Source: a virus. From it: a DNA stretch of 36,161 nt. Below the pieces are notes generated by a model. That model saw nothing but the letters and a program-made list of their open reading frames with translations, had not been told where the DNA came from and did no database searches. Positions 16,042-30,729 of the stretch are shown piece by piece; position 1 is the stretch's first letter; each line of letters opens with the position of its first letter. A program made the translations under genes and the position numbers. The DNA is taken from the IMG/VR virus record IMGVR_UViG_3300032607_001125, positions 1-36,161 of that record; one strand, given 5' to 3'.

Positions 16042-17580
16042 GTGGCAATCATTCGCCTCGGTGTTGCAAATCCAGCAGCTAACGCTGATACAGCTCTGCA
16101 AACTTTTGATGACCCGCATTTAATATCTGTTATAGCTGCAAGTAAGGCAGTAACTGCTACTCCTGTAGCTAAAGTAACTATTTGGGTCGTTCCTGCTAAT
16201 GCAACAGTTGTTGCTCAATATGCTTACATTGCTTTTAACGTTTCTGTAGGTCTAGGTCAATCCTTTGAAACATTCAGATTTGCTGTAAATGAAGGGGATA
16301 TTTTATATGTAAAATCTACAGTTTCAACTATGTCTTTTAGTTGTAGTGGCATTGTTCAAAGTGATGCAGGTTTGCCAGAAAATATTTCTCAAGTACTAAC
16401 AAACAAAACTATTCGTGGAGTAGATAATACTTTGTATTTAGATATAGGTTCAACTGCAAATAGAAATCAAAACGTTTCAACTGGATATGTAAGATTTAAT
16501 ACTGAAACCGATGCATTAGAAGTTAAAACTTCAACCGACTGGGAAACAGTTGGTTCGGGTGCAGGTGGCGGAAGTGGAGCAACAGGTCCTACAGGTCCAA
16601 CAGGCCCATCGGGTGGACCTACTGGTCCAACTGGACCTGTTGGCGTAACTGGAGGTATTGGCCCAACAGGACCCGCAGGTGGACCAACTGGTGCAACAGG
16701 ATCTACGGGTCCTACTGGTCCATCAGGTGGACCTACTGGTGCTACAGGATCTACAGGAGCCACAGGACCAACTGGACCATCAGCAGGTCCCACTGGTGCG
16801 ACAGGTGCACAAGGTATTACAGGTCCGACAGGTGCAACGGGTGCAACTGGACCTAGCGTAACGGGAGCAACTGGTGCTGCAAGTACAGTAACAGGTCCGA
16901 CAGGAGCAACAGGAGCTACGGGAGCAACTGGTGCTGCAAGTACAGTTGCTGGTCCTACAGGTCCAGGTGGAGGTGCTACTGGTGCTACTGGTGCTACTGG
17001 AAGTACAGGTCCTACTGGACCTAGCGTAACTGGTGCAACTGGTGCTACTGGACCAACCTCAACTGTTGTAGGTCCGACAGGAGCAACTGGAGCTACGGGT
17101 CCAACGGGTGCTCCCTCTACAGTTACTGGACCAACAGGTGCAACAGGTGCTGCAACATTTAATGGACTAACAGATGGAGCCACTGCTGGATTAACAGTAG
17201 ATGAGATCGCCTATCCTGCGATTACTAGATTATCTGTAACTAATAGTGGATTTGCAGCGTATCTTTTTAATAATCAATATACTGGAAATAACCCTACTAT
17301 TTATGCAATTTCAGGAACTACTATTGCCTTTAACTTAGCCGTAACTGGACATCCTTTCTTAATCAAGACTGCAGCTGGTGCATCAACCTATGACACTGGC
17401 CTAATTCATGTGGCTACCGATGGAACAGTTTCTACGGGAGCATCAGCACAAGGTAAAGTAACAGGGACTCTATATTGGCAAATACCAGCTAGTGTAACTG
17501 GAGCATACGCTTATCAATGTTCAATTCACACTGGAATGCTTGGAGTTATCACCATCAAGAACATTGCGTCAATGGCATGA
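16042..17580 (+). CDS. Collagen-like fibre with cupredoxin-like C-terminal domain
   Basis: The 512-aa product starts at GTG, ten bases after the previous stop, with AAGGGG just upstream. Residues 1-108 form an N-terminal domain shared with the gene at 17819 ([12 protein letters not shown]...GD). Residues 120-171 resemble a fibre stem ([13 protein letters not shown]). Residues about 176-372 are collagen-like. The tip (about 373-512) looks like a cupredoxin: GHPFLI contributes His437, and [11 protein letters not shown] contributes Cys493, His496 and Met499. The C-x2-H-x2-M spacing equals that of amicyanin-type copper proteins. All four type-1 copper ligands are therefore present. Whether it binds copper, or uses the fold only for structure or receptor binding, is open. 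It is followed by an overlapping small gene. Confidence 0.8.
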
Positions 17581-17582
17581 TA

Positions 17583-17819
17583 ATGGAAACGGTGGGCAAT
17601 TTTGAGTGGAAAGCAGAGGAGAGTGAAAATACTCCTTTGCTTAACTTAACCATTAAAAATATTTCTGAAAATAAGACTGTACTAGTTTCAGATGTAGTAT
17701 GGGCCACTGGCCGTGAAGATTTTCTTGAGGGTGTGTATAATACAGCTGTAGAAACTCTTGAAGGAGCAGATCATTGCTGCTATGAAGGAAAAGTTTCTTT
17801 AGTAGAGGGTGGTCAATAA
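17583..17819 (+). CDS. Small protein between two fibre paralogues
   Basis: The 78-aa product begins [13 protein letters not shown] and has no recognised family. It is acidic, with a predicted beta-strand segment ([10 protein letters not shown]) and a Cys pair (HCCYEG) near the C-terminus. An ATG at 17577 overlapping the upstream TGA (ATGA) would add two residues (MI) and is an equal candidate for coupled initiation. A still longer frame from 17517 runs inside the upstream gene and is not favoured. Its stop overlaps the next ATG by one base. The position between two genes that share an N-terminal domain suggests a fibre-associated accessory protein or chaperone, but there is no direct evidence. 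Confidence 0.6.
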
Positions 17820-19888
17820 TGCCAGTAAAACGTTTAGGAACTAATACTCCTCTAGCTAATACATTAACTCTTTTGACAACTTCTGATGTCGCAGGAGTTG
17901 CTTCTGTGATTACAGCTAATAAAGGTGCAGTTGATGCTCAGGTAACAATTTATGTAGAGCCCTTTAATGCTGGTGGTAACCCTAATAGTCTTGCATACAT
18001 TGTAAGTGATTTAGTAATTGGTATTGGTCAGTCTTTTGAAACTTTTAGGTTTGCTGTAAATGTTGGAGATTTTATCTATATTAGATCAACAACTGCTCAG
18101 TGTGCATTTTCAACACATATCGCATATGAATCTTCAGGTAGATCAAATATTATTTATCAATCTACAGAACCAGGAAGTCCTCAGGTTGGAGATATATGGA
18201 TTGATAGTGATGATGAGTCAATCAATGTTTTCACAGGATCAGATTTTAATACTGTAGGAACTGCAGCTCCTGTAGGTCCAACTGGACCAGCTGGTCCCAC
18301 TGGTGCGACAGGTCCTTTAGGACCAACAGGACCAGATGGATCTGGAGTTAGAATATTAGGTAAATATGAAACTCTTGGTGCTCTTGTAGCGGATAGTCCA
18401 ACAGGTAACGTTGGTGATGCTTATATAATATCTACAAATTTATATGTATGGAATGATACAAATCAAGAGTGGTTTAATGCTGGAGCATTTGTAGCTGGAC
18501 CAACGGGATCTACAGGACCTACTGGACCAGCTAGCTTAGTTCCTGGACCTACAGGACCTTCTGATGGCCCAACAGGTCCGACTGGTGCATCAGGTCCGAC
18601 AGGTGCAACAGGTCCATCGGGAGGTCCGACAGGTCCGACAGGTGCAACAGGTCCATCGGGAGGTCCGACAGGACCAGCTGGACTTACTATAGTAGGACCA
18701 ACAGGTCCAATTGGGCAAACAGGTTTACAAGGAGCAACTGGACCAACAGGACCTAGAGGTACTGCTTCAACTGTTGTAGGTCCTGCTGGAGCAACAGGTG
18801 CAACAGGCTCAACAGGACCATCTGGTGGACCAACAGGTCCAACAGGTGCAAGTGGTCCACAAGGAGATATAGGCGCAACTGGTCCTACTGGTGCGACAGG
18901 TCCAAGTGTTACAGGAGCCACTGGTGCGACAGGAGCTACAGGATCCGCAAGTACAGTAACTGGTCCTACTGGTGCGACAGGTGCAAGTGTTACAGGACCT
19001 ACAGGTGGAACTGGTCCAACTGGACCATCAGGCGGGCCTACTGGACCTACAGGACCTACGGGTGCTGGCGGTGGATCTATTGATGTTGCTACAACTACAG
19101 ATTCAACATCTTTTGTTGGTCTATATGAAAGCCCTACAGGATCACTTGGTGGTAAAACAAACAGCGGAATTACTTATAACGCAACAACAGAAACTCTTAA
19201 AGTAACAACAATAGAAGCAAATACAGTTGCAGCTCCTGCAGGTTTGGTTGGAACTTATACGATTTCATCTCCAACAACTATTACTTTAAGCCCAACTACA
19301 GAAATTTTAAATAATGCTCCAGTACGTTTATATGCAAGAACCGCAGTACAACTATCTTCTTTAGTTTCTAGTACTGGAGCTTTAACTTGGGATAGCACTA
19401 ACTCTCAAGTTAAAGTAAACAATGGAAGCACTTGGGTAAATGTGTCAGGTTCTACAGGACCTACAGGACCAACTGGTCCAACATCAACAGTACTTGGACC
19501 TACAGGACCAACTGGCCCTACAGGAAGTACTGGTCCAACGGGTGCTACAGGCGCGACTGGTGCTGGCGGTATCGAGTCAGTTAACCCACAAACAGGAACA
19601 ACATATCCTTTTGTTTTATCAGATCGTGATGATTTAGTTACCGCATTGAATGCAAGCGCTCAGACATATACAATTCCTTTAAACTCAAGCGTTGCATTCC
19701 CTATTGGAAGTTTAATCAATCTTATTCAAATTGGTGTAGGACAAGTAACCGTGCAAGGTGCTGGTGGTGTAACTGTTTTATCAACAGCTGCAGTTGCTGC
19801 TACCCCTAAAACTAGAGCTCGCTACTCTGCTATGACATTGATCAAAGCGGGAACGGATCTTTGGTACGCAAGCGGAGATATAGCTTAA
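17819..19888 (+). CDS. Long collagen-like tail fibre protein
   Basis: The 689-aa product starts at ATG 17819, overlapping the preceding TAA by one base. Residues 1-110 are paralogous to the N-terminus of the 16042 gene ([11 protein letters not shown]...[15 protein letters not shown]). Then come a divergent GDIWID...FNTVG bead (about 115-150), a [14 protein letters not shown] bead (about 176-226) and a collagen-like tract with PSGGPTG register breaks (about 227-420). A separate beta-rich domain (about 420-545), a short collagen stretch and a C-terminal domain (about 586-689) complete it. The C-terminal domain (GVGQVTV...GGVTVL) is shared with the 3202 gene. So the protein combines the N-terminus of one paralogue with the C-terminus of another, as expected from domain shuffling. 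Tail-fibre function is inferred. Confidence 0.85.
18592..18669 (+). repeat. Perfect 39-bp tandem duplication in collagen-like coding DNA
   Basis: Bases 18592-18630 and 18631-18669 are identical 39-bp copies encoding a 13-residue unit that includes GATGPSGG. Because 13 is not a multiple of three, each copy brings a Gly-Gly step that shifts the Gly-X-Y register. Identity at every base indicates recent duplication by slippage or recombination within the fibre gene. Confidence 0.9.
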
Positions 19889-20800
19889 ATGCCTATCATT
19901 GGGATTTTATCTAGTAGTTTAATTTTAAAGCCTGTCCTTACTGGCGGAATTTTGGCTTCCGATGCTACTTATTATTATCGAACTTTTATTGCAAACGGAA
20001 CTTTAGGTATAACTAGACTAGCAATTAATTTAAATGTATTAGTTATTGCAGGTGGCGGTGGTGGCGGAGGTTTCTTTGGTGGAGCTGGTGGAGCTGGCGG
20101 AGTGCGTACTACTGCAGTTGCTGCCGCATTAGGCAATAAAAATATAATTGTTGGTGGCGGAGGATCTGGTGGAGCTAGTTTTACAAATGGTGGAGTTGGC
20201 ATAGATTCAACATTTGATGGTTTTACTTCAAACGGTGGTGGTTTTGGCTCGGGTGGCGGCGTAACAAATGGAACTTTAGAAGCTGGTGGTTTTGGCGGCT
20301 CGGGTGGTGGTGGCGGATCAAGTAACACAAGCGGGTTTTCTTCTGCTGGTGGTGGAAACTACCTTACAACAAGCCCATCTCAAGGTAGTGATGGTGGTCG
20401 TGGATATAGAAATGCAGCAAACCCAACGGGTGGTGGTATTGGTTCTGGTGGTGGTGGCGGTGCTGGTGCATCAGCAGTTGATGGTCCAGTAAGTCCAGGC
20501 GGAATTGGTACAGATACTTACTCTACTTGGTTGTACGCAATTGCTGCATCATTGAGCGGTGTCCCTAACTGGTCTACTGCTATATCATCTGGTCACATTG
20601 CTGGCGGTGGTGGTGGATATCCTGCGTACAACACTAGCGGCGGTGCTGTTTCAAATGCAAGCGGTGGTCTAGGTGGAGGCGGTGGGACTCAGGTTTCTGG
20701 AACAACAAACACTGGTGGTGGCGGTGGCGGTGGTGGAACTGGTGCTGCTGGTGGTTCAGGACTTGTAGTTGTTCGTTATTTGAAATCGGCGGTTGATTAA
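19889..20800 (+). CDS. Glycine-rich tail fibre tip / adhesin
   Basis: The 303-aa protein starts at the ATG directly after the upstream stop, with GGAG about 12 bases before it. After a short N-terminal segment (about 1-50) it becomes dominated by Gly runs (GGGGGGG, GGAGGAGG) separated by short polar or aromatic stretches, and ends GGSGLVVVRYLKSAVD. This architecture is common for C-terminal tips of phage fibres and resembles the polyglycine-sandwich adhesins of T4-like phages (gp38 type), where loops between Gly helices bind the receptor. That functional analogy is inference. Its stop overlaps the next start by one base (TAATG). Confidence 0.7.
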   Translation: MPIIGILSSSLILKPVLTGGILASDATYYYRTFIANGTLGITRLAINLNVLVIAGGGGGGGFFGGAGGAGGVRTTAVAAALGNKNIIVGGGGSGGASFTNGGVGIDSTFDGFTSNGGGFGSGGGVTNGTLEAGGFGGSGGGGGSSNTSGFSSAGGGNYLTTSPSQGSDGGRGYRNAANPTGGGIGSGGGGGAGASAVDGPVSPGGIGTDTYSTWLYAIAASLSGVPNWSTAISSGHIAGGGGGYPAYNTSGGAVSNASGGLGGGGGTQVSGTTNTGGGGGGGGTGAAGGSGLVVVRYLKSAVD

Positions 20801-22668: not shown

Positions 22669-23253
22669 ATGACTGAAGACTATGTAAACTGGTTTAAGAA
22701 TGATGGACAGACAAATTTTGCTACATTTCTTTTAAAGAACTACGTTCCCGGTAAGCCAGCTAAGTATCTACAAGTTGGGGCGTATACAGGGGATGCCTCA
22801 CTTTGGGTTTATGAGAACCTACTTAAGAATTCAAACTCTGTTTTAGTAGATATTGACACATGGGAGGGTTCTGACGAGCCTGTTCATCATAAAATGAATT
22901 GGCAAACTGTGGAGTCCTTGTATGATGAAAAGGTTGCAGAAGGATTAAAAGATAAAAAGATTGTTAAGTTTAAAGGCACCAGCGATGAGTTTTTTAGATC
23001 TAATACTGAAAAGTTTGACTTTATATATGTTGACGGTGACCATACCGCTTACGGTGTCCTCAAAGATGCAATTGCTGCATATGAATGCTTAGAGGTCGGA
23101 GGGATCATCGGCTTTGATGATTACGAGTGGTCTGCTGGTTTAGGGGTTAGAAAAGAGCCAAAAATGGCAATTGATGCCTTTAGCAACATTTATGGCGATA
23201 GAGTTGTAGAGATATTTAAAGGATATCAGCGGTGGTTTAGGAAAATAGGGTAG
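22669..23253 (+). CDS. Class I SAM-dependent methyltransferase-like protein
   Basis: The 194-aa product shows a Rossmann methyltransferase layout: motif I at about 33-41 (YLQVGAYTG), an acidic strand end VDID (60-63), FIYVDGDH (118-125) and GGIIGFDDYEW (144-154). The pattern fits the Methyltransf_24-type families, which act on small molecules or sugars. Substrate cannot be read from sequence. It follows the protease by 25 bases with a weak purine-rich ribosome site (AAGAGAT). Nearby glycosyltransferase and halogenase genes suggest involvement in modifying a glycan or small molecule, but that is inference. Confidence 0.7.
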   Translation: MTEDYVNWFKNDGQTNFATFLLKNYVPGKPAKYLQVGAYTGDASLWVYENLLKNSNSVLVDIDTWEGSDEPVHHKMNWQTVESLYDEKVAEGLKDKKIVKFKGTSDEFFRSNTEKFDFIYVDGDHTAYGVLKDAIAAYECLEVGGIIGFDDYEWSAGLGVRKEPKMAIDAFSNIYGDRVVEIFKGYQRWFRKIG

Positions 23254-23279
23254 ACTAGGAAATAACAAAAGGAGACACA

Positions 23280-23474
23280 ATGAGTAAGTATACGAAACCA
23301 GATCAAACAGCAAAAGTAAAGACACGTCTTTATACATATCACATCACAATGGATGTACAGGTTCTTGCTAGTAATTCAGAGGAAGCAGACTCTTTACTGG
23401 ATAACCAAGGCGGGTATGTAAGTACAAGAAGAGTTCTTTTAGTTAGCGACGCAGCTGTATTCGAGGAGGAGTAG
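23280..23474 (+). CDS. Small hypothetical protein (64 aa)
   Basis: ATG 23280 follows a strong AAAAGGAGA (23267-23275). The protein (MSKYTKPDQTAKVKTRLYTY start) has a basic N-terminus, a beta-rich middle (YTYHITMDVQVLASN) and an acidic end (VFEEE). No family was recognised. It is spaced tightly before the Cys-rich gene at 23483 and is likely cotranscribed. Confidence 0.6.
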   Translation: MSKYTKPDQTAKVKTRLYTYHITMDVQVLASNSEEADSLLDNQGGYVSTRRVLLVSDAAVFEEE

Positions 23475-23482
23475 AGGATACA

Positions 23483-23719
23483 ATGCTTAACGGTAGAAAA
23501 TGGTCTAGAGGAGCACGCCCTTGGGATCTATTAGACTCAGAGATAGGTAGAGTTTCAGAAGTAGTTCAAAAAGAAAGACTTTCTATTTGTGAAAAATGCC
23601 CTCTTCTTAATCCTGTTATGAAAACTTGCGCTGAATGCGGATGCTTTATGGCTGTTAAAACCAAACTACCTAATGCTTTTTGTCCTATAGGCAAATGGGG
23701 AGAAAGTGTGAAAGAATAG
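23483..23719 (+). CDS. Small Cys-rich putative zinc-binding phage protein
   Basis: This 78-aa protein contains six Cys residues: Cys36, Cys39, Cys49, Cys52, Cys54 and Cys67, in the order CEKC...CAECGC...CPIGKW. The arrangement matches a small phage protein type with a C-x2-C...C-x2-C-x-C...CP..KW layout and is expected to bind zinc. Such proteins occur near tail and adhesin genes in large phages; function is unknown. ATG 23483 is preceded by GAGGAGGAGTAGAGG, giving several overlapping ribosome-binding options. Confidence 0.7.
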   Translation: MLNGRKWSRGARPWDLLDSEIGRVSEVVQKERLSICEKCPLLNPVMKTCAECGCFMAVKTKLPNAFCPIGKWGESVKE

Positions 23720-23762
23720 CTTTATAAAATATATACAATAGCAGTATTACTTAGGAGACAAA
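23720..23762 (+). promoter_or_regulatory. AT-rich leader with possible -10 / late-promoter-like motifs
   Basis: The 43 bases before the glycosyltransferase contain TATAAAAT (23723-23730) and TATACAAT (23732-23739), then a clear AGGAGA ribosome site about 7 bases before ATG. Either motif could be a -10 or a T4-like late element, but no -35 stands out and base composition makes chance matches likely. Confidence 0.2.
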
Positions 23763-24818
23763 ATGAAAGTAGCTATCTACACGATTGCGCTTAATGAGCG
23801 TCAGTTTGTCGATAAGTGGTTTGAAGCATCGAAAGATGCAGACTACCTTCTTATTGCTGATACTGGTTCTACAGATGGAACGATAGAGCGTGCCCGAGAG
23901 CTTGGGATAAATGTTGTAGATGTGAGAGTTGCTCCTTGGAGATTTGATGACTCACGCAATGCTGCTTTAGCTGCACTCCCTATTGATATTGATATGTGTA
24001 TCTCTTTAGATATGGATGAAGTGATTACTCCTAATTGGAGAGAGCTCTTAGAACCAGCTTTTGAACGTGGAGTAACTCGTCCTCGCTACAAGCACATCTG
24101 GTCTTGGAATGAAGACGGCACTCCTGGTTTGGAATTCAGTTATGATCACATTCATGCTCGTAAGGGCTATCGCTGGCGTCATCCTGTCCACGAGTGTCTT
24201 TATGTTTACGGTATGGAAGAGAAACAAGAGTGGATTGAAGGTCTAGAAACACATCATCACCCGGATCCATCTAAATCTCGTTCTCAATACCTACCACTTC
24301 TTGCTCTTTCAGTAAAAGAAGATCCCTACAATGATCGCAATGCTTTTTATTATGGACGTGAGCTTTATTTCTACGGACACCACGCTGAAGCTGCAGCAGA
24401 GTTAAAACGTCATTTAGATCTTCCAACAGCGCACTGGGCACCAGAGCGTGCAGCATCTATGCGTTTTATTGCTAAATCAGTTCCAGCAGAAGCAGAGATC
24501 TGGTTGCGTAGAGCAATCGAACAAGCTCCAGGTAGAAGAGAACCTTGGGTAGATCTTGCAAAAATGTATTACGAACGCAACGACTGGGTTAAATCTCTCG
24601 ACTGTGCAAGAGAGGCTCTTGCTATTAAAGAAAAACCCCTCGAGTATCTCTGTGAAGCAGAAGCTTGGGGAGCAGCACCGCATGATTATGCAGCTATAGC
24701 ATGCTATAACTTAAGTATGTATAGTGATGCCTTGATTTATGCTGAGACAGCAACTAGTATTGATCCGTTAGATGAAAGATTAAAACTGAACTTACAATTC
24801 TGTAAAGATATGATGTAA
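23763..24818 (+). CDS. Family 2 glycosyltransferase with helical-repeat C-terminus
   Basis: The 351-aa protein has a GT-A/GT2 catalytic domain in its first half. It starts with YTIALNE; TGSTDGT at 34-40 is the nucleotide-sugar loop, and SLDMDE at 81-86 provides the DxD metal site. The C-terminal half (about 190-351) is alpha-helical with TPR-like character (WLRRAIEQAP, SLDCAREALAI, ALIYAETATSIDP). This combination is typical of bacterial and phage GT2 proteins that glycosylate surface polymers or proteins. AGGAGA precedes the start. In this context it may glycosylate virion proteins or alter host surface glycans; the acceptor is unknown. Confidence 0.85.
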   Translation: MKVAIYTIALNERQFVDKWFEASKDADYLLIADTGSTDGTIERARELGINVVDVRVAPWRFDDSRNAALAALPIDIDMCISLDMDEVITPNWRELLEPAFERGVTRPRYKHIWSWNEDGTPGLEFSYDHIHARKGYRWRHPVHECLYVYGMEEKQEWIEGLETHHHPDPSKSRSQYLPLLALSVKEDPYNDRNAFYYGRELYFYGHHAEAAAELKRHLDLPTAHWAPERAASMRFIAKSVPAEAEIWLRRAIEQAPGRREPWVDLAKMYYERNDWVKSLDCAREALAIKEKPLEYLCEAEAWGAAPHDYAAIACYNLSMYSDALIYAETATSIDPLDERLKLNLQFCKDMM

Positions 24819-24844
24819 CTTCTAGCGACTATGAGGACATGTGT

Positions 24845-25549
24845 ATGAGTAAAAAAACTATTAAATTTGGTGCACAGCTAGATTGGTTAGAAAAACCAAA
24901 CCCTAGTCGCGTTCATATACCAGAGTGGTATAAGAAAGTACCTCTTTGGTCTAGATCTGGAAAACCAGAAATTAGATCAGACGGAGGCAACGCTACTGTT
25001 AAATCATGTCCACCTTTTCTTGATAGTTTCTTAACTGGATACACTGTAGAGTTGTGGCAAGACATACAGATTGAGAAATCAGATCGAAACGACGAAATTA
25101 ATATTACTTGGGGGTTAGAAGAAGCACCAGTAGTAACTAATAGAGATCCAGAACTTACTAAAGGATTCCCAATGCCTTCCGAGTATAGAGATATACATTT
25201 TATATGGAAAAGTCCTTACGCAATGCAGACACCAAAAGGTTATAGTTTATTGATTACCCATCCTTTAAATAGACTAGATCTTCCTTTTACTACTTTAAGC
25301 GCTGTAGTAGACGCAGATAAATATCCTATATCTGACGGATCAATTCCATTTTTTCTTAAAAAAGATTTTTACGGGATAATAAAAAAAGGAACTCCGCTAT
25401 TTCAAGTTATTCCCTTTAAAAGAGACGAGTGGAATTCAGAAATGAGCGAAGAGTTATTTATTGAAGCTAGAATATATTCTAAAAAGTCTAGAAGTATCGT
25501 TAGTGGTTTTTATAAAAACTTTCAGTGGAGCAAGAAGACATATACATAA
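24845..25549 (+). CDS. Unrecognised conserved-type phage protein (234 aa)
   Basis: Start chosen at ATG 24845 because GAGG at 24833-24836 lies eight bases upstream. The ATG at 24839 would be only two bases from it and would add MC. The protein shows IPEWYKKVP near the N-terminus, then SCPPFLDSFLTGYT, WKSPYAMQTPKGYSLLITHP (about 120-139), PFFLKKDFYG and KKGTPLFQVIPFKRDEW. This WxxxTPxGYSxLxxHPxN...GTPxxQxxPFxR layout is a recurring phage hypothetical, beta-rich and possibly a jelly-roll-type fold. I cannot assign a reaction. It lies 59 bases before the halogenase-like gene, so cotranscription and a shared pathway are plausible. Confidence 0.6.
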   Translation: MSKKTIKFGAQLDWLEKPNPSRVHIPEWYKKVPLWSRSGKPEIRSDGGNATVKSCPPFLDSFLTGYTVELWQDIQIEKSDRNDEINITWGLEEAPVVTNRDPELTKGFPMPSEYRDIHFIWKSPYAMQTPKGYSLLITHPLNRLDLPFTTLSAVVDADKYPISDGSIPFFLKKDFYGIIKKGTPLFQVIPFKRDEWNSEMSEELFIEARIYSKKSRSIVSGFYKNFQWSKKTYT

Positions 25550-25608
25550 TCATTAATACTTTATATACTTAAATTTATTATATAAATCTATCTTTAGGGA
25601 AGGCGTAA
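25550..25608 (+). promoter_or_regulatory. AT-rich intergenic with possible late-promoter-like element
   Basis: The 59-bp gap is almost entirely A/T. TATAAATC at 25581-25588 differs by one base from the T4-type late promoter TATAAATA and lies 20 bases upstream of the halogenase start. AGGGAAGG at 25596-25603 is the ribosome site, five bases before ATG. The promoter call is weak because of base composition. Confidence 0.25.
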
Positions 25609-27117
25609 ATGAAAATTGTTATTGCTGGAGGCGGCACGGCTGGCTGGCTGGCTGCATTTGCATTACATAAAGCTAACCCTAACAGGCATGAAATAACTGT
25701 TGTTGAGTCAGAAAAAATTGGAATTATAGGTGCTGGCGAAGCTACTAGCGGTTTACTGTATGACCTACTGTCAGGTGTAATGTTTACTAATGATGGAACA
25801 GTAAATGGATTCTCAGAGCCTTTTGATTTCCAGCATTTTATGAAAGAAGTAGGTGGAATACCTAAGTATGCTTTAGAGCATATCAACTGGGCAAAAGATA
25901 AAGGTAGTTACTGGGCACCTATTGAAGGATCTGAAACTTGGAAACAGACTCCCGATTATTTGTTTAATTACGCAGTTAGTGAGTTTGGGATTAAAAAAGC
26001 ATATCTATCTAGCACAATAGGTCAATGTTATGATCTAAATAAGGTACCAAATGGAGCTTATGGATTTCAATTTGATGGCTTAAAAGTTGGAAAATATATA
26101 AAAAAATATTTATTAAATAGCACGAAAACTACTAGCATAGATGCAATTATTATGGATTCTTATATAAATTCTAAAGGGTTAGTAGAGAATATAGTTTTAG
26201 ACAACGGGCAAACTATTTACGGTGACTTCTTTATAGACTCTTCTGGTTTTGCAAAAGTTATTTCTAAAAAACTTGATATGGGATGGGTAAGCTATAAAGA
26301 TTGTTTGCTAGTAGATAGGGCTATGCCATTCTTAACACCTTATGCTGAAGACGAGAAGATAAAGCCAGTGACTCAAGCCTACGCTATGTCATCAGGGTGG
26401 ATCTGGAGAACTCCTACTAGATACCGTAGAGGTAATGGCTATGCATACAATAGTCAATTTATCTCGGATGAAGATGCAAAGCTTGAAGCAGAAAAATTAG
26501 TAGGACATGAGATAGAGCCGATAAAGTTTATTCAGTATGATTCAGGTAGAGTTAAAGAGTTCTGGAAGGGAAACGTTCTTACTATAGGACTTGCTGGTTC
26601 ATTTTTAGAACCTTTAGAGGCAACTTCTATTCATGGAACTGTACTTCAACTATATACTTTTTGTAGCGAGTATCTGACTAAAGATATCGAGACAACTTTA
26701 AACCCTGCATCAATAAGAAACTACAATAAGAAAACTGTAGAGATGTATGAATATTATAAAGATTTCACTGTATTGCACTATCAAGGTGGTAGGGAGGACT
26801 CAGAGTTTTGGCGTCATATTAAGAATGAAAAAATAACTACCCCTGTTGTTCAAGACTATATTGAAAAATCTAAGAGCAAAATACCTTCTACTATGTATTT
26901 TGCAGATTACTGGAACACAGACACCTTGTGGAAGTGGAGCCTTGCAGGTCTAGGGTTGATGACCGAAAAACAAGCTCTAGACGAGCTATTAGATGCTAAT
27001 AAGTATGAATATGCAAAAGATCATTACGAATACTTTGTAATGGAAACAAAAAACTCTGTGCAGGATAATTATCCATTTGAGGTAAACGTGTCTATGTTTT
27101 TAGACGAGCTTAAATAA
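25609..27117 (+). CDS. Flavin-dependent tryptophan-halogenase-like protein
   Basis: The 502-aa protein has the family hallmarks. The FAD-binding GGGTAGW lies at 7-13 and GAGEAT at 41-46. Lys86 in GIPKYALEHINW matches the catalytic lysine that forms the chloramine or hypohalous acid adduct (Lys79 in PrnA). The signature WIWRTP (WxWxxP) lies at 264-269, and FLEPLEATSI at 332-341 matches the PLExTxI loop near the halide and substrate sites. Length fits the family (about 500-540 aa). Such enzymes need FADH2 from a reductase, which is absent here and presumably supplied by the host. Substrate could be tryptophan, an indole or a peptide. Related genes are known in cyanophages; their role is unsettled. 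Its 3' end overlaps the convergent gene by 8 bp. Confidence 0.85.
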   Translation: MKIVIAGGGTAGWLAAFALHKANPNRHEITVVESEKIGIIGAGEATSGLLYDLLSGVMFTNDGTVNGFSEPFDFQHFMKEVGGIPKYALEHINWAKDKGSYWAPIEGSETWKQTPDYLFNYAVSEFGIKKAYLSSTIGQCYDLNKVPNGAYGFQFDGLKVGKYIKKYLLNSTKTTSIDAIIMDSYINSKGLVENIVLDNGQTIYGDFFIDSSGFAKVISKKLDMGWVSYKDCLLVDRAMPFLTPYAEDEKIKPVTQAYAMSSGWIWRTPTRYRRGNGYAYNSQFISDEDAKLEAEKLVGHEIEPIKFIQYDSGRVKEFWKGNVLTIGLAGSFLEPLEATSIHGTVLQLYTFCSEYLTKDIETTLNPASIRNYNKKTVEMYEYYKDFTVLHYQGGREDSEFWRHIKNEKITTPVVQDYIEKSKSKIPSTMYFADYWNTDTLWKWSLAGLGLMTEKQALDELLDANKYEYAKDHYEYFVMETKNSVQDNYPFEVNVSMFLDELK

Positions 27118-27454
27118 AGTGTTTTACAAGAAACGTTACTGCAAGAACACTCCATAAAATATTAAACCAAATCAAAGTTGGAAGAGTTTTAATAGTCGCT
27201 GACCAGATCAGCAGGATACTTGTGATTAGTGCAAAGATATAAAGCCACCATATAGAGATACCAAAAAGCAGTCCTGGAATGATGATTAAGGCTTTTGTTG
27301 TAAAAGCACAGAACTCAACTGTATTGGGGATATTCCAATAAGCTTTTGTCTTCATTGTTTTTAAGGCAGTAATCCATTGAAAATGCTTTTTTACATTCCC
27401 ATCAAATACCTCTGCGTTAGTGAAGAAGTTTGGATCCTTATAGTTTTTTGTCAT
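27110..27454 (-). CDS. Small integral membrane protein
   Basis: The 114-aa protein has a soluble N-terminal part (about 1-48) followed by hydrophobic stretches at about 50-69, 68-86 and 91-110. These are two or three transmembrane segments rich in Ile, Leu and Trp. Its ATG overlaps the WhiB stop (ATGA at 27451-27454), indicating translational coupling. The 3' end overlaps the halogenase-like gene in convergent orientation by 8 bp. No family was recognised. Possibilities include host-membrane modification, superinfection exclusion or lysis control; the three-helix shape with Trp-rich segments could fit a holin-like protein, but no endolysin is seen nearby, so no function is assigned. Confidence 0.65.
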   Translation of the reverse strand: MTKNYKDPNFFTNAEVFDGNVKKHFQWITALKTMKTKAYWNIPNTVEFCAFTTKALIIIPGLLFGISIWWLYIFALITSILLIWSATIKTLPTLIWFNILWSVLAVTFLVKHFI

Positions 27455-27936
27455 TTTTTCCCTTTTTTAGTCTTGTCGGTTTTCTCTGTACGTTCTAGTT
27501 TATAGGCTTCAACTGCATTTGCGCTAGTACGGCTTCTCCACGAGAAGTTACATTCAGTACAGGTAACTACCTTTGCCGTGGTCCAACGACCGCCATTAGG
27601 TAGCTCTTCTATAGATGTCTCGAGTTTAGATGGGCGAGCTGTGCAGTACGGGCAGTTAGGAAATCTGCGTCGTCTTGTCTCTTCACCGTTATAAGATACA
27701 GAGAGTGTTCTACGAATGTCAACCTCATCTTTACCACCCCAGATGCCCCAGATCTGACGGTGCTCTAGAGCCCACTGGAGACACTGTGAGCGCACAGGGC
27801 ACTCAAAGCACATGTTCTTAGCTGAGTATTTTTCTGCAGGTTCTTTGGAGAAGAACCAGTCAACTGATTCTTTATTCTTAGGATCGGCGCACAGACCGTC
27901 TCGTTGCCACTCTAGGTTGTCAGCTGGTTTCCACAT
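27451..27936 (-). CDS. whiB: WhiB-family iron-sulfur regulator with extra C-terminal zinc ribbon
   Basis: The 161-aa protein has the WhiB core: Cys16 (GLCADP), Cys43, Cys46 and Cys52 (MCFECPVRSQC) for a [4Fe-4S] cluster, then GIWGG at 64-68 and the basic segment RRTL / TRRRRF. WhiB proteins bind sigma factor region 4 and control transcription in Actinobacteria, and mycobacteriophages carry versions that alter host gene expression. Here a second module follows at about 92-135: CPYC (95-98) and CTEC (126-129), a zinc-ribbon-like pair absent from usual short WhiB proteins. A Lys/Thr-rich tail ends it. No clear Shine-Dalgarno precedes the ATG, so a short-leader or leaderless transcript is possible. 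It is coupled to the downstream membrane protein. Confidence 0.88.
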   Translation of the reverse strand: MWKPADNLEWQRDGLCADPKNKESVDWFFSKEPAEKYSAKNMCFECPVRSQCLQWALEHRQIWGIWGGKDEVDIRRTLSVSYNGEETRRRRFPNCPYCTARPSKLETSIEELPNGGRWTTAKVVTCTECNFSWRSRTSANAVEAYKLERTEKTDKTKKGKK

Positions 27937-29029: not shown

Positions 29030-29234
29030 TCTTTAACCTCGCAGTCACTAAAGCAGAGTATGAGTATGTACTAGCCGTTTTTTCAATAGCACTTATGTCT
29101 AGCTCGTAGTTAACGTACTTACTAAGATCTTCAAGATCAATCTCAATAAACCCAGCTAACTCTTTTTTAACCTTATCTTGTAGATTTTGATAATCACTTC
29201 CCTCAACTTTAAACTTAAAAGTGGCAGAGTTCAT
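29022..29234 (-). CDS. Small hypothetical protein (70 aa)
   Basis: The product starts MNSATFKFKVEGSDYQNLQD and appears to fold as beta-alpha-beta: an opening strand, the helix LQDKVKKELAGFIEI, then a long strand (YSYSALVTARLKNV). The layout resembles small dodecin- or ACT-like folds but no motif confirms it. Its ATG overlaps the upstream stop by one base and its 3' end overlaps the next gene by 8 bp. A real, coupled gene of unknown function. Confidence 0.6.
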   Translation of the reverse strand: MNSATFKFKVEGSDYQNLQDKVKKELAGFIEIDLEDLSKYVNYELDISAIEKTASTYSYSALVTARLKNV

Positions 29235-29674
29235 TACGGAACTCGCTTTTCAAGCTGCTGAGGTGTGTAGTGAAATCCTTCCAGCACTGGTTCTTTGCCA
29301 TCCGTTGTCTTGACAATGATGTCACCATAGCGAATGCTAACAATCTTGCCACGACGCCCGTTATGGATCTTACCTTTTTCACCATCAAAGGCATTCCACT
29401 TAACACGAACCTCATCCGCGACTACAAGATCTCCCGCTTGAGCTGGAGTCCAGTTTTCGTTTTTGTTCTCTTTTACAATGGCATGACCTAAAGCAATCTT
29501 GCTAAAGAGCTCAACTATCTGACTCAGATTTGCTTGATCTTTAGTTGGATCTGGATCCGTGTTCTTAATCTCAATCCAAGTATTAAGGAGCTTAATGACG
29601 GAATCGCCAACCACCCTTTTAGTCTTGTTGTCTGTGAGTTGTTGTTTAACCCAGTTCATATCTACTTCTGGCAT
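29234..29674 (-). CDS. KOW-like domain protein (146 aa)
   Basis: Start chosen at ATG 29672-29674 because AAAGGAC (29681-29687) lies six bases upstream. A longer frame to 29896 would run through about 196 bases of the upstream gene. The N-terminal half is helical (MPEVDMNWVKQQLTDNK, VGDSVIKLLNTW). The C-terminal half (about 85-146) is a small beta-barrel-like segment, RVKWNAFDGEKGKI...RRGKIVSIRYGDIIVK, with the alternating Gly and hydrophobic pattern of KOW domains found in NusG and ribosomal proteins. KOW domains bind RNA or RNA polymerase, so a regulatory or nucleic-acid role is possible. It ends overlapping the 70-aa gene by one base. Confidence 0.7.
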   Translation of the reverse strand: MPEVDMNWVKQQLTDNKTKRVVGDSVIKLLNTWIEIKNTDPDPTKDQANLSQIVELFSKIALGHAIVKENKNENWTPAQAGDLVVADEVRVKWNAFDGEKGKIHNGRRGKIVSIRYGDIIVKTTDGKEPVLEGFHYTPQQLEKRVP

Positions 29675-29700
29675 CTTAATGTCCTTTCTGACAGATGTGC

Positions 29701-30729
29701 CTAGATTACTAACAGCAAGCTCTGGTTGTCCAGTGCTCCTACTGTTTTTTGCAAAGATTCCTCCCGTGAGGGAGTTGCATCTCTGTAAAAATCTTTCTGA
29801 TTTTGTGCCACGATAAGCCGCTGACTCGGGCTCATCTCTTCCACTGTTGAAGGTAAAAACGCCCATTCTGCTCCTACCCAAGATGTATGACGCCAATCAG
29901 TAACTACAGGAACACCAACCGCAATCGATTGAGATATTGCTATAGACCACCAAGGGTCGTTGTTTTTGTATGTACTAATCAAAGTTCCCATAGAGTTCTC
30001 TATGCGACTTAGAATTTCGCTGTTCTTATCGTAAGTTTTAACTCTTATGGGGACTACCTCTGAGACAAGACTTTTTGTGACCCTCTTAGTCCAATCACTT
30101 TTAGGTGCATCAGCACACCAATAATTACCTAGTGAAGGCTCAATACGATCTACAGAGGTATCAATAAGCTCTCTGTCATAGCAGATACCAATCACATCTT
30201 CAGTTTTAATGTTTTTTATTGAGTTGGAAACAATCTCTCTAGAAAACCACGGCATACTTGGAACAATAACCTTACCCCACTGTTCCGTGTAAAGATGTTG
30301 AAGAAAATGATATATTGACTCGGCGTACTTACTATCCTGAGCCTCTAAATAATTATCTCTACGTCCATAGAAAGACTTAAAAAGCTTTTCTGGATTATCA
30401 TTACAGTCTCTAATTCCAGACCATATCCAGTATGGATCTGGTGCATCAATAAGAAGTCTAAGTTTCCCGAGTTCTTTTGCTTGGCTGGCTACCCAGAGAC
30501 CTCCATATACATAATTAGCTGCCATGCTATGAGGCGAAGCAAGACCAACTACTATCAAATCATATTGATCTAAATATTCTTTGCTCATACTGAGCTGTGG
30601 TTTTTCCCAAGTAACATCATATTGAAGTTCATCCAAAGCATTTTTAAACAATCCAGTAAAAGTAGACAGGCGATTATTTACATTCTCAGAACACTGAGAT
30701 GCTGTAAATCCTGTGACTAGTACTTTCAT
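29701..30729 (-). CDS. GT-B-fold glycosyltransferase-like protein
   Basis: The 342-aa protein opens with the Rossmann-like strand MKVLVTGFTASQ, then DLIVVGLASPHSMAANYVYG and LRLLIDAPDPYWIW. The C-terminal part resembles the nucleotide-sugar half of GT-B enzymes: DPWWSIAISQSIAVGVPVVT, then AEWAFLPSTVEEM. Similar proteins in actinophages are annotated as glycosyltransferases of unknown acceptor. A role in modifying phage DNA bases or host glycans is possible; location within the early operon leans to DNA or host modification, but this is inference. AAGGAG lies four bases before ATG. A strong hairpin separates it from the replication genes upstream. Confidence 0.6.
   Translation of the reverse strand: MKVLVTGFTASQCSENVNNRLSTFTGLFKNALDELQYDVTWEKPQLSMSKEYLDQYDLIVVGLASPHSMAANYVYGGLWVASQAKELGKLRLLIDAPDPYWIWSGIRDCNDNPEKLFKSFYGRRDNYLEAQDSKYAESIYHFLQHLYTEQWGKVIVPSMPWFSREIVSNSIKNIKTEDVIGICYDRELIDTSVDRIEPSLGNYWCADAPKSDWTKRVTKSLVSEVVPIRVKTYDKNSEILSRIENSMGTLISTYKNNDPWWSIAISQSIAVGVPVVTDWRHTSWVGAEWAFLPSTVEEMSPSQRLIVAQNQKDFYRDATPSREESLQKTVGALDNQSLLLVI

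Follow-up and report, generated by a model that had tools for sequence, protein, structure and literature searches.

Why phages carry genes for tryptophan halogenases has been unexplained since such genes were first noticed in cyanophage genomes. One of these genes lies in IMG/VR virus record IMGVR_UViG_3300032607_001125, the whole of which (36,161 bp) was analysed here and is called the window. Two testable clues emerged, the recurrent placement of phage halogenase genes beside tail-fibre genes and their recurrent pairing, across halogenase lineages, with one family of dUTPase-fold proteins. We tentatively favour the explanation that the halogenase is a tailoring enzyme that does not act on free tryptophan and belongs to a tail-fibre modification module, in which it would likely halogenate fibre or adhesin proteins. 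This reading suggests, short of proof, that phages may alter the chemistry of the fibres with which they recognise their hosts. Were fibres halogenated, phage virions would have a modification of a new kind, and the enzymes would be a source of protein-level halogenases.

The window and its tail-fibre operon

The window virus is a phage of freshwater actinobacteria, and its gene order is the same as that of Actinomycetia phage DSL-LC01: collagen-like tail fibres, halogenase slot, glycosyltransferase (GT), reverse WhiB, SSB, Sak4, nuclease, helicase, RuvC and Pol I. DSL-LC01 was assembled from a Dishui Lake metagenome and is uncultured, with a host assigned by prediction (PMC10611076). The Sak4 proteins of the two phages are 85% identical and the GTs are 61-62% identical. 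Because it has no genes for the terminase, the capsid or a large part of the tail, and DSL-LC01 measures 129 kb, the window is most likely a fragment of a larger phage genome.

The original prediction had grouped a methyltransferase (MT), a Cys-rich protein, a GT, a 234-aa protein and a halogenase at 22669-27117, and all five are present there on the plus strand (Table 1). It overlooked a 64-aa ORF, the collagen-like tail-fibre operon immediately upstream and a 114-aa membrane protein at the 3' end. The operon order is fibres, protease, MT, Cys-rich protein, GT, p236 and halogenase, with WhiB convergent at the end; gaps are at most 60 bp from the protease through the six plus-strand genes that run from MT to halogenase. 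Chance ORFs can be excluded, since the ORFs are long, the family matches are strong and the neighbours are conserved in dozens of related contigs. Promoter-like sites in the window were fewer than expected by chance and terminator-like sites were barely above it (9 versus 6.2 expected, sd 2.4), both counts being uninformative. Further along the minus strand, two conserved ORFs (29234-29896 and 29701-30729) overlap by approximately 200 bp as called, and the true start of the 220-aa ORF of this pair is probably further downstream.

Table 1. Features of the tail-fibre and halogenase region of the window
Feature	Position	Strand	Matches and remarks
Collagen-like (GPT-repeat) and glycine-rich tail-fibre ORFs	16042-20800 (16042-17580, 17517-17819, 17819-19888, 19889-20800)	+	Located upstream in the same late operon; PHROG tail fibre matches for 16042-17580 and 17819-19888; weak Gly_rich_2 match, just under cut-off, for 19889-20800
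Subtilisin-like (S8) protease, 517 aa	21090-22643	+	PF00082, 7e-36; phrog_9158
Class I methyltransferase (MT), 194 aa	22669-23253	+	PF13578 Methyltransf_24, 3e-15
64-aa ORF, function unassigned	23280-23474	+	Recurs near MT/GT in relatives
Cys-rich protein, 78 aa	23483-23719	+	DUF6171; phrog_13558
GT2-like glycosyltransferase (GT) with TPR tail, 351 aa	23763-24818	+	phrog_13126, 1e-112
p236, 236 aa (234 aa from second ATG)	24839-25549	+	phrog_7084, 6e-35; dUTPase/dCTP-deaminase fold in model
Flavin-dependent halogenase, 502 aa	25609-27117	+	PF04820 Trp_halogenase, 6e-80
Membrane protein, 114 aa	27110-27454	-	Overlaps and is convergent with halogenase 3' end; relatives' homologues on plus strand beside GT or halogenase
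WhiB-like regulator	27451-27936	-	PF02467, 2e-16; bounds module

A flavin-dependent halogenase without the free-tryptophan motif

The window protein is a genuine flavin-dependent halogenase (FDH). It matches PF04820 over residues 2-455 with 269.7 bits (cut-off 21), and its structural model (mean pLDDT 91) has the PrnA-like FDH fold (Z 45.4 over 473 residues, rmsd 2.6), superposing on both PrnA and RebH at Z 45. The FAD motif (GGGTAGW, residues 7-13), K86 and the WxWxxP motif (WIWRTP, 264-269) are intact as originally described, and so is E337 in FLEPLEATS, which had not been named. K86 aligns with Lys79 of PrnA and E337 with Glu346, the catalytic residues of that enzyme. Close relatives have not lost these residues: both are the same in approximately 20 distinct actinophage homologues (most 43-72% identical), while across 36 aligned sequences K86 is found in 36 and E337 in at least 90%. 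In the halogenases of S-PM2 and S-RIM44 (33% identity) the position of the catalytic Glu is occupied by Gln. According to a review, replacing an active-site Glu near the indole NH with Asp lowers activity and with Gln abolishes it, though this Glu may not be the equivalent of E337 (PMC8407142). Values of dN/dS for close halogenase pairs are mostly 0.05-0.1, with one pair at 0.27, indicating purifying selection. The enzyme thus appears to be catalytically working and FADH2-dependent, adding chlorine or bromine to an aromatic substrate.

Halogenases have already been published for cyanophages (PMC2984593, PMC3037559), and the original prediction that the window extends them to phages of actinobacterial hosts was anticipated in 2023 by ORF137 of DSL-LC01, annotated as a 'tryptophan 7-halogenase' (PMC10611076). 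ORF137 occupies the corresponding position in the gene order, with tail fibres on one side and WhiB on the other, and adjoins the orthologous GT, but it is only 21-22% identical to the window halogenase and belongs to another lineage. It also reads EPLD rather than EPLE and WVSKIP rather than WxWxxP (L010:19344-20915), residues from which it is likely to be inactive or altered. In our tree the window lineage belongs to a clade with support of 1.0, whose 34 sampled members are all viral. An actinobacterial origin was considered and rejected: most of the 80 best bacterial matches (28-36%) come from Alpha- and Gammaproteobacteria, and no title among them names an actinobacterium. A single-sequence search of IMG/VR found no relatives of the halogenase; those used here were reached by profile searches.

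Characterised free-tryptophan halogenases (groups A/B) are marked by the Trp4 motif, YYxxF..FRNFW or YYHGxxxYS (PMC8269204). This motif was found in none of 281 homologues tested, the window protein included. PrnA, RebH and PyrH share with the window enzyme the fold and the catalytic Lys and Glu, but they carry the motif and are only about 25% identical to it. Free-tryptophan halogenation was rejected as a candidate function on account of the missing motif; the window halogenase probably does not use free tryptophan, and 'tryptophan halogenase' is unsupported as a statement of its substrate. The absence of Trp4 fits the group that contains VirX1, BrvH and the peptide halogenase MibH, a grouping that does not name a substrate. 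MibH, a lanthipeptide Trp halogenase (PDB 5UAO), halogenates Trp within a peptide and is a model for a protein-bound substrate; it has the same fold as the window enzyme (Z 37) but is 21% identical to it, and RiPP genes were not recognised in the window. VirX1, the published flavin halogenase of cyanophage Syn10 (PDB 6QGM), likewise has the FDH fold (Z 35.5) and is listed without Trp4; its active site is large and open, and its small-molecule scope is broad (PMC8407142).

Genomic context and a possible role in fibre modification

Profiles of Sak4 and GT scanned against IMG/VR gave 160 loci (80 each) from the phage family of the window and its relatives. Among 63 distinct GT loci, 31 had a complete fibre-to-WhiB interval and 16 of these 31 contained a halogenase, counts that refer to distinct sequences and not to independent events. 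In the complete intervals sampled, the halogenase lies between the tail fibres and WhiB, with optional presence and variable position, and the usual order where it occurs is MT-GT-halogenase-WhiB, so that the neighbours seen in the window co-occur in many actinophages. MT is present with GT in close relatives whether or not there is a halogenase; GT and MT belong to the regular gene set of the phage family, the halogenase to its optional genes. Both p236 and the Cys-rich protein also accompany tail fibres. The idea of a joint tailoring block therefore survives in part: tailoring of the virion is plausible from the tail-fibre context, but a single dedicated five-gene pathway was rejected because relatives that lack the halogenase retain GT and MT.

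The halogenase could instead be a moron carried at a hot spot, the fibre-WhiB interval taking up unrelated genes with some other role, such as superinfection exclusion or the release of hypohalous acid. Its optional presence and variable position agree with this, as do the variable islands known at the tail fibres of freshwater actinophages (PMC10202952), but most close relatives carry a limited repertoire of modifying enzymes and carbohydrate-binding modules in this interval (a few distant ones have primase genes there), and the pairing of p236 with a halogenase is seen again outside this site. We consider cargo of this kind unlikely.

Beyond the actinophages, the next-closest viral halogenases are 36-44% identical, and their commonest neighbours are 2OG-Fe(II) oxygenases (34 and 31 domain matches, which may overlap, among 132 neighbours). 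Certain phage 2OG oxygenases resemble prolyl hydroxylase, a protein-modifying enzyme (PMC12774648). Tail-fibre proteins adjoin the halogenase in four contigs (L208, L213, L222 and L248), S-SRM01 has the order tail fibre, unknown gene, halogenase and gp37-gp38 adhesin tip, and S-CREM1 encodes a collagen-like protein near its halogenase. Syn10 has tail-fibre assembly genes upstream of two halogenases and a phrog_7084 gene immediately after them; it differs from the window in its host, in a separate tree lineage (about 23% identity to either copy) and in that no GT/MT block was recognised. No annotated tail gene was present near the halogenase in the stretch viewed of S-B64, S-H38, S-SSM7 or P-SSM2. 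Two tandem halogenases form a common arrangement in about 17 marine contigs; in L194, the only one of these scanned, a tail sheath stabiliser precedes the pair, and matches to PfkB, an epimerase and a cytidylyltransferase fit the genes after it.

Another explanation is that the halogenase is an auxiliary metabolic gene whose product halogenates a small aromatic metabolite, host-derived or secreted, with an effect in defence, signalling or antibiosis. Such a role was proposed earlier for cyanophage prnA (PMC2984593), the open active site and broad scope of VirX1 agree with it, and the neighbours of the halogenase in S-SSM7 are sugar-nucleotide and carbamoyltransferase genes. However, a biosynthetic scaffold gene was not recognised in the window, and placement at the end of a tail operon, the missing Trp4 motif and the 2OG-Fe(II) oxygenase neighbours elsewhere all speak against it; a metabolite substrate seems to us rather unlikely.

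Modification of the fibres is favoured by the intact active site and PrnA-like fold, purifying selection, the all-viral clade and the absence of Trp4, together with the fibre-WhiB placement, the short gaps, tail adjacency in other phages and the oxygenase neighbours. The halogenase could then be optional within a late module for tail-fibre modification that also comprises GT, MT and p236, with which it is probably co-transcribed. Late in infection, transcription of the fibre operon would read through into the halogenase gene, and a host flavin reductase would supply FADH2. In FDH chemistry, reduced flavin and O2 form a flavin hydroperoxide, which with halide gives HOX. The HOX would move to the Lys86 side and react there with an electron-rich aromatic group, possibly the side chain of Trp, Tyr or His or else a protein-attached group. 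The most immediate candidates for such a substrate are the tail-fibre or adhesin proteins encoded in this operon, and their halogenation may alter host recognition or stability to the benefit of the phage. Several points weigh against modification of the fibres. GT and MT are independent of the halogenase, and the aromatic (Trp/Tyr) content of fibres shows no visible difference between phages with and without it, the independent lineages being too few for a test. Because the fibres are part of a variable island, the halogenase may be located there through hot-spot insertion. The halogenases of S-B64, S-SSM7 and S-H38 are not adjacent to annotated tail genes, and a second actinophage locus, in the large relatives G002, G003 and G004 (L344, L345 and L346), lies near ribonucleotide reductase and endolysin genes. 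In the open-access papers that could be searched, no report was found of a link between phage halogenases and tail fibres or of their pairing with p236.

p236 and its pairing with halogenases

The 234-aa protein, at first described as unrecognised, belongs to phrog_7084, and modelling indicates that it is a dUTPase/dCTP-deaminase fold protein. The AlphaFold2 model has a pLDDT of 91 and a best PDB match at Z 9.9, and among the 50 matches listed per structure search all were dUTPases or dCTP deaminases. Strongly conserved GIVDxD and GTPxxQ segments resemble dUTPase motifs III and IV, a likeness of sequence pattern only. The protein differs from the dUTPase superfamily, including its DUF6065-like members, in that the C-terminal motif V is absent; the match to DUF6065 itself was under the cut-off.

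As for co-occurrence, which the original prediction had proposed to check, p236 adjoins halogenases of several lineages. In four of the five named phages that have both (S-RIM44, Syn10, P-TIM40 and S-CREM1, but not S-RIM4) the phrog_7084 gene is directly after the halogenase, and three of these four pairings look like one inherited arrangement. In the second actinophage locus a halogenase of another lineage, 28-29% identical to that of the window, directly follows p236, the pairing in its three representatives probably being a single inherited event; in G002 and G003 this halogenase precedes a TM114-like membrane protein. Gene arrays in IMG/VR (L203, L227, L228 and L236) have p236 runs within a few genes of halogenases, and the environmental arrays with this arrangement are rich in 2OG-Fe(II) oxygenases. 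Because the halogenases paired with p236 fall in different tree lineages, the pairing probably arose or was kept several times. A fixed bond between the two at the GT-WhiB site was rejected, both being there only in the window and L042. Halorubrum virus HF2 has p236 without any halogenase, and therefore p236 has uses of its own. In S-RIM4 (L014) and HF2 (L015), which are unrelated viruses, p236 is close to ribonucleotide reductase genes.

These features raise the question of whether a nucleotide is the substrate of p236 and the halogenase, GT, MT and 2OG enzymes acting as further base modifiers. The dUTPase fold and the GIVDxD segment agree with this, as does the proximity of p236, in HF2, S-RIM4 and actinophages, to ribonucleotide reductase. 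Against it, the window pair lies in a tail operon distant from replication genes, p236 has no motif V, and the best Pfam match of the MT is Methyltransf_24 and not a DNA-methylase family, though its PHROG matches carry the label DNA methyltransferase. We regard nucleotide halogenation as very unlikely, and it is still more doubtful that the pair makes halogenated nucleotides which become halogenated bases in the DNA of some tailed phages, a finding that would add a class to the known hypermodifications of phage DNA. With regard to the fibres themselves, the C-termini of tail-fibre proteins in L096, L101 and L130 contain YxCxxHxxM-like segments reminiscent of the cupredoxin copper site.
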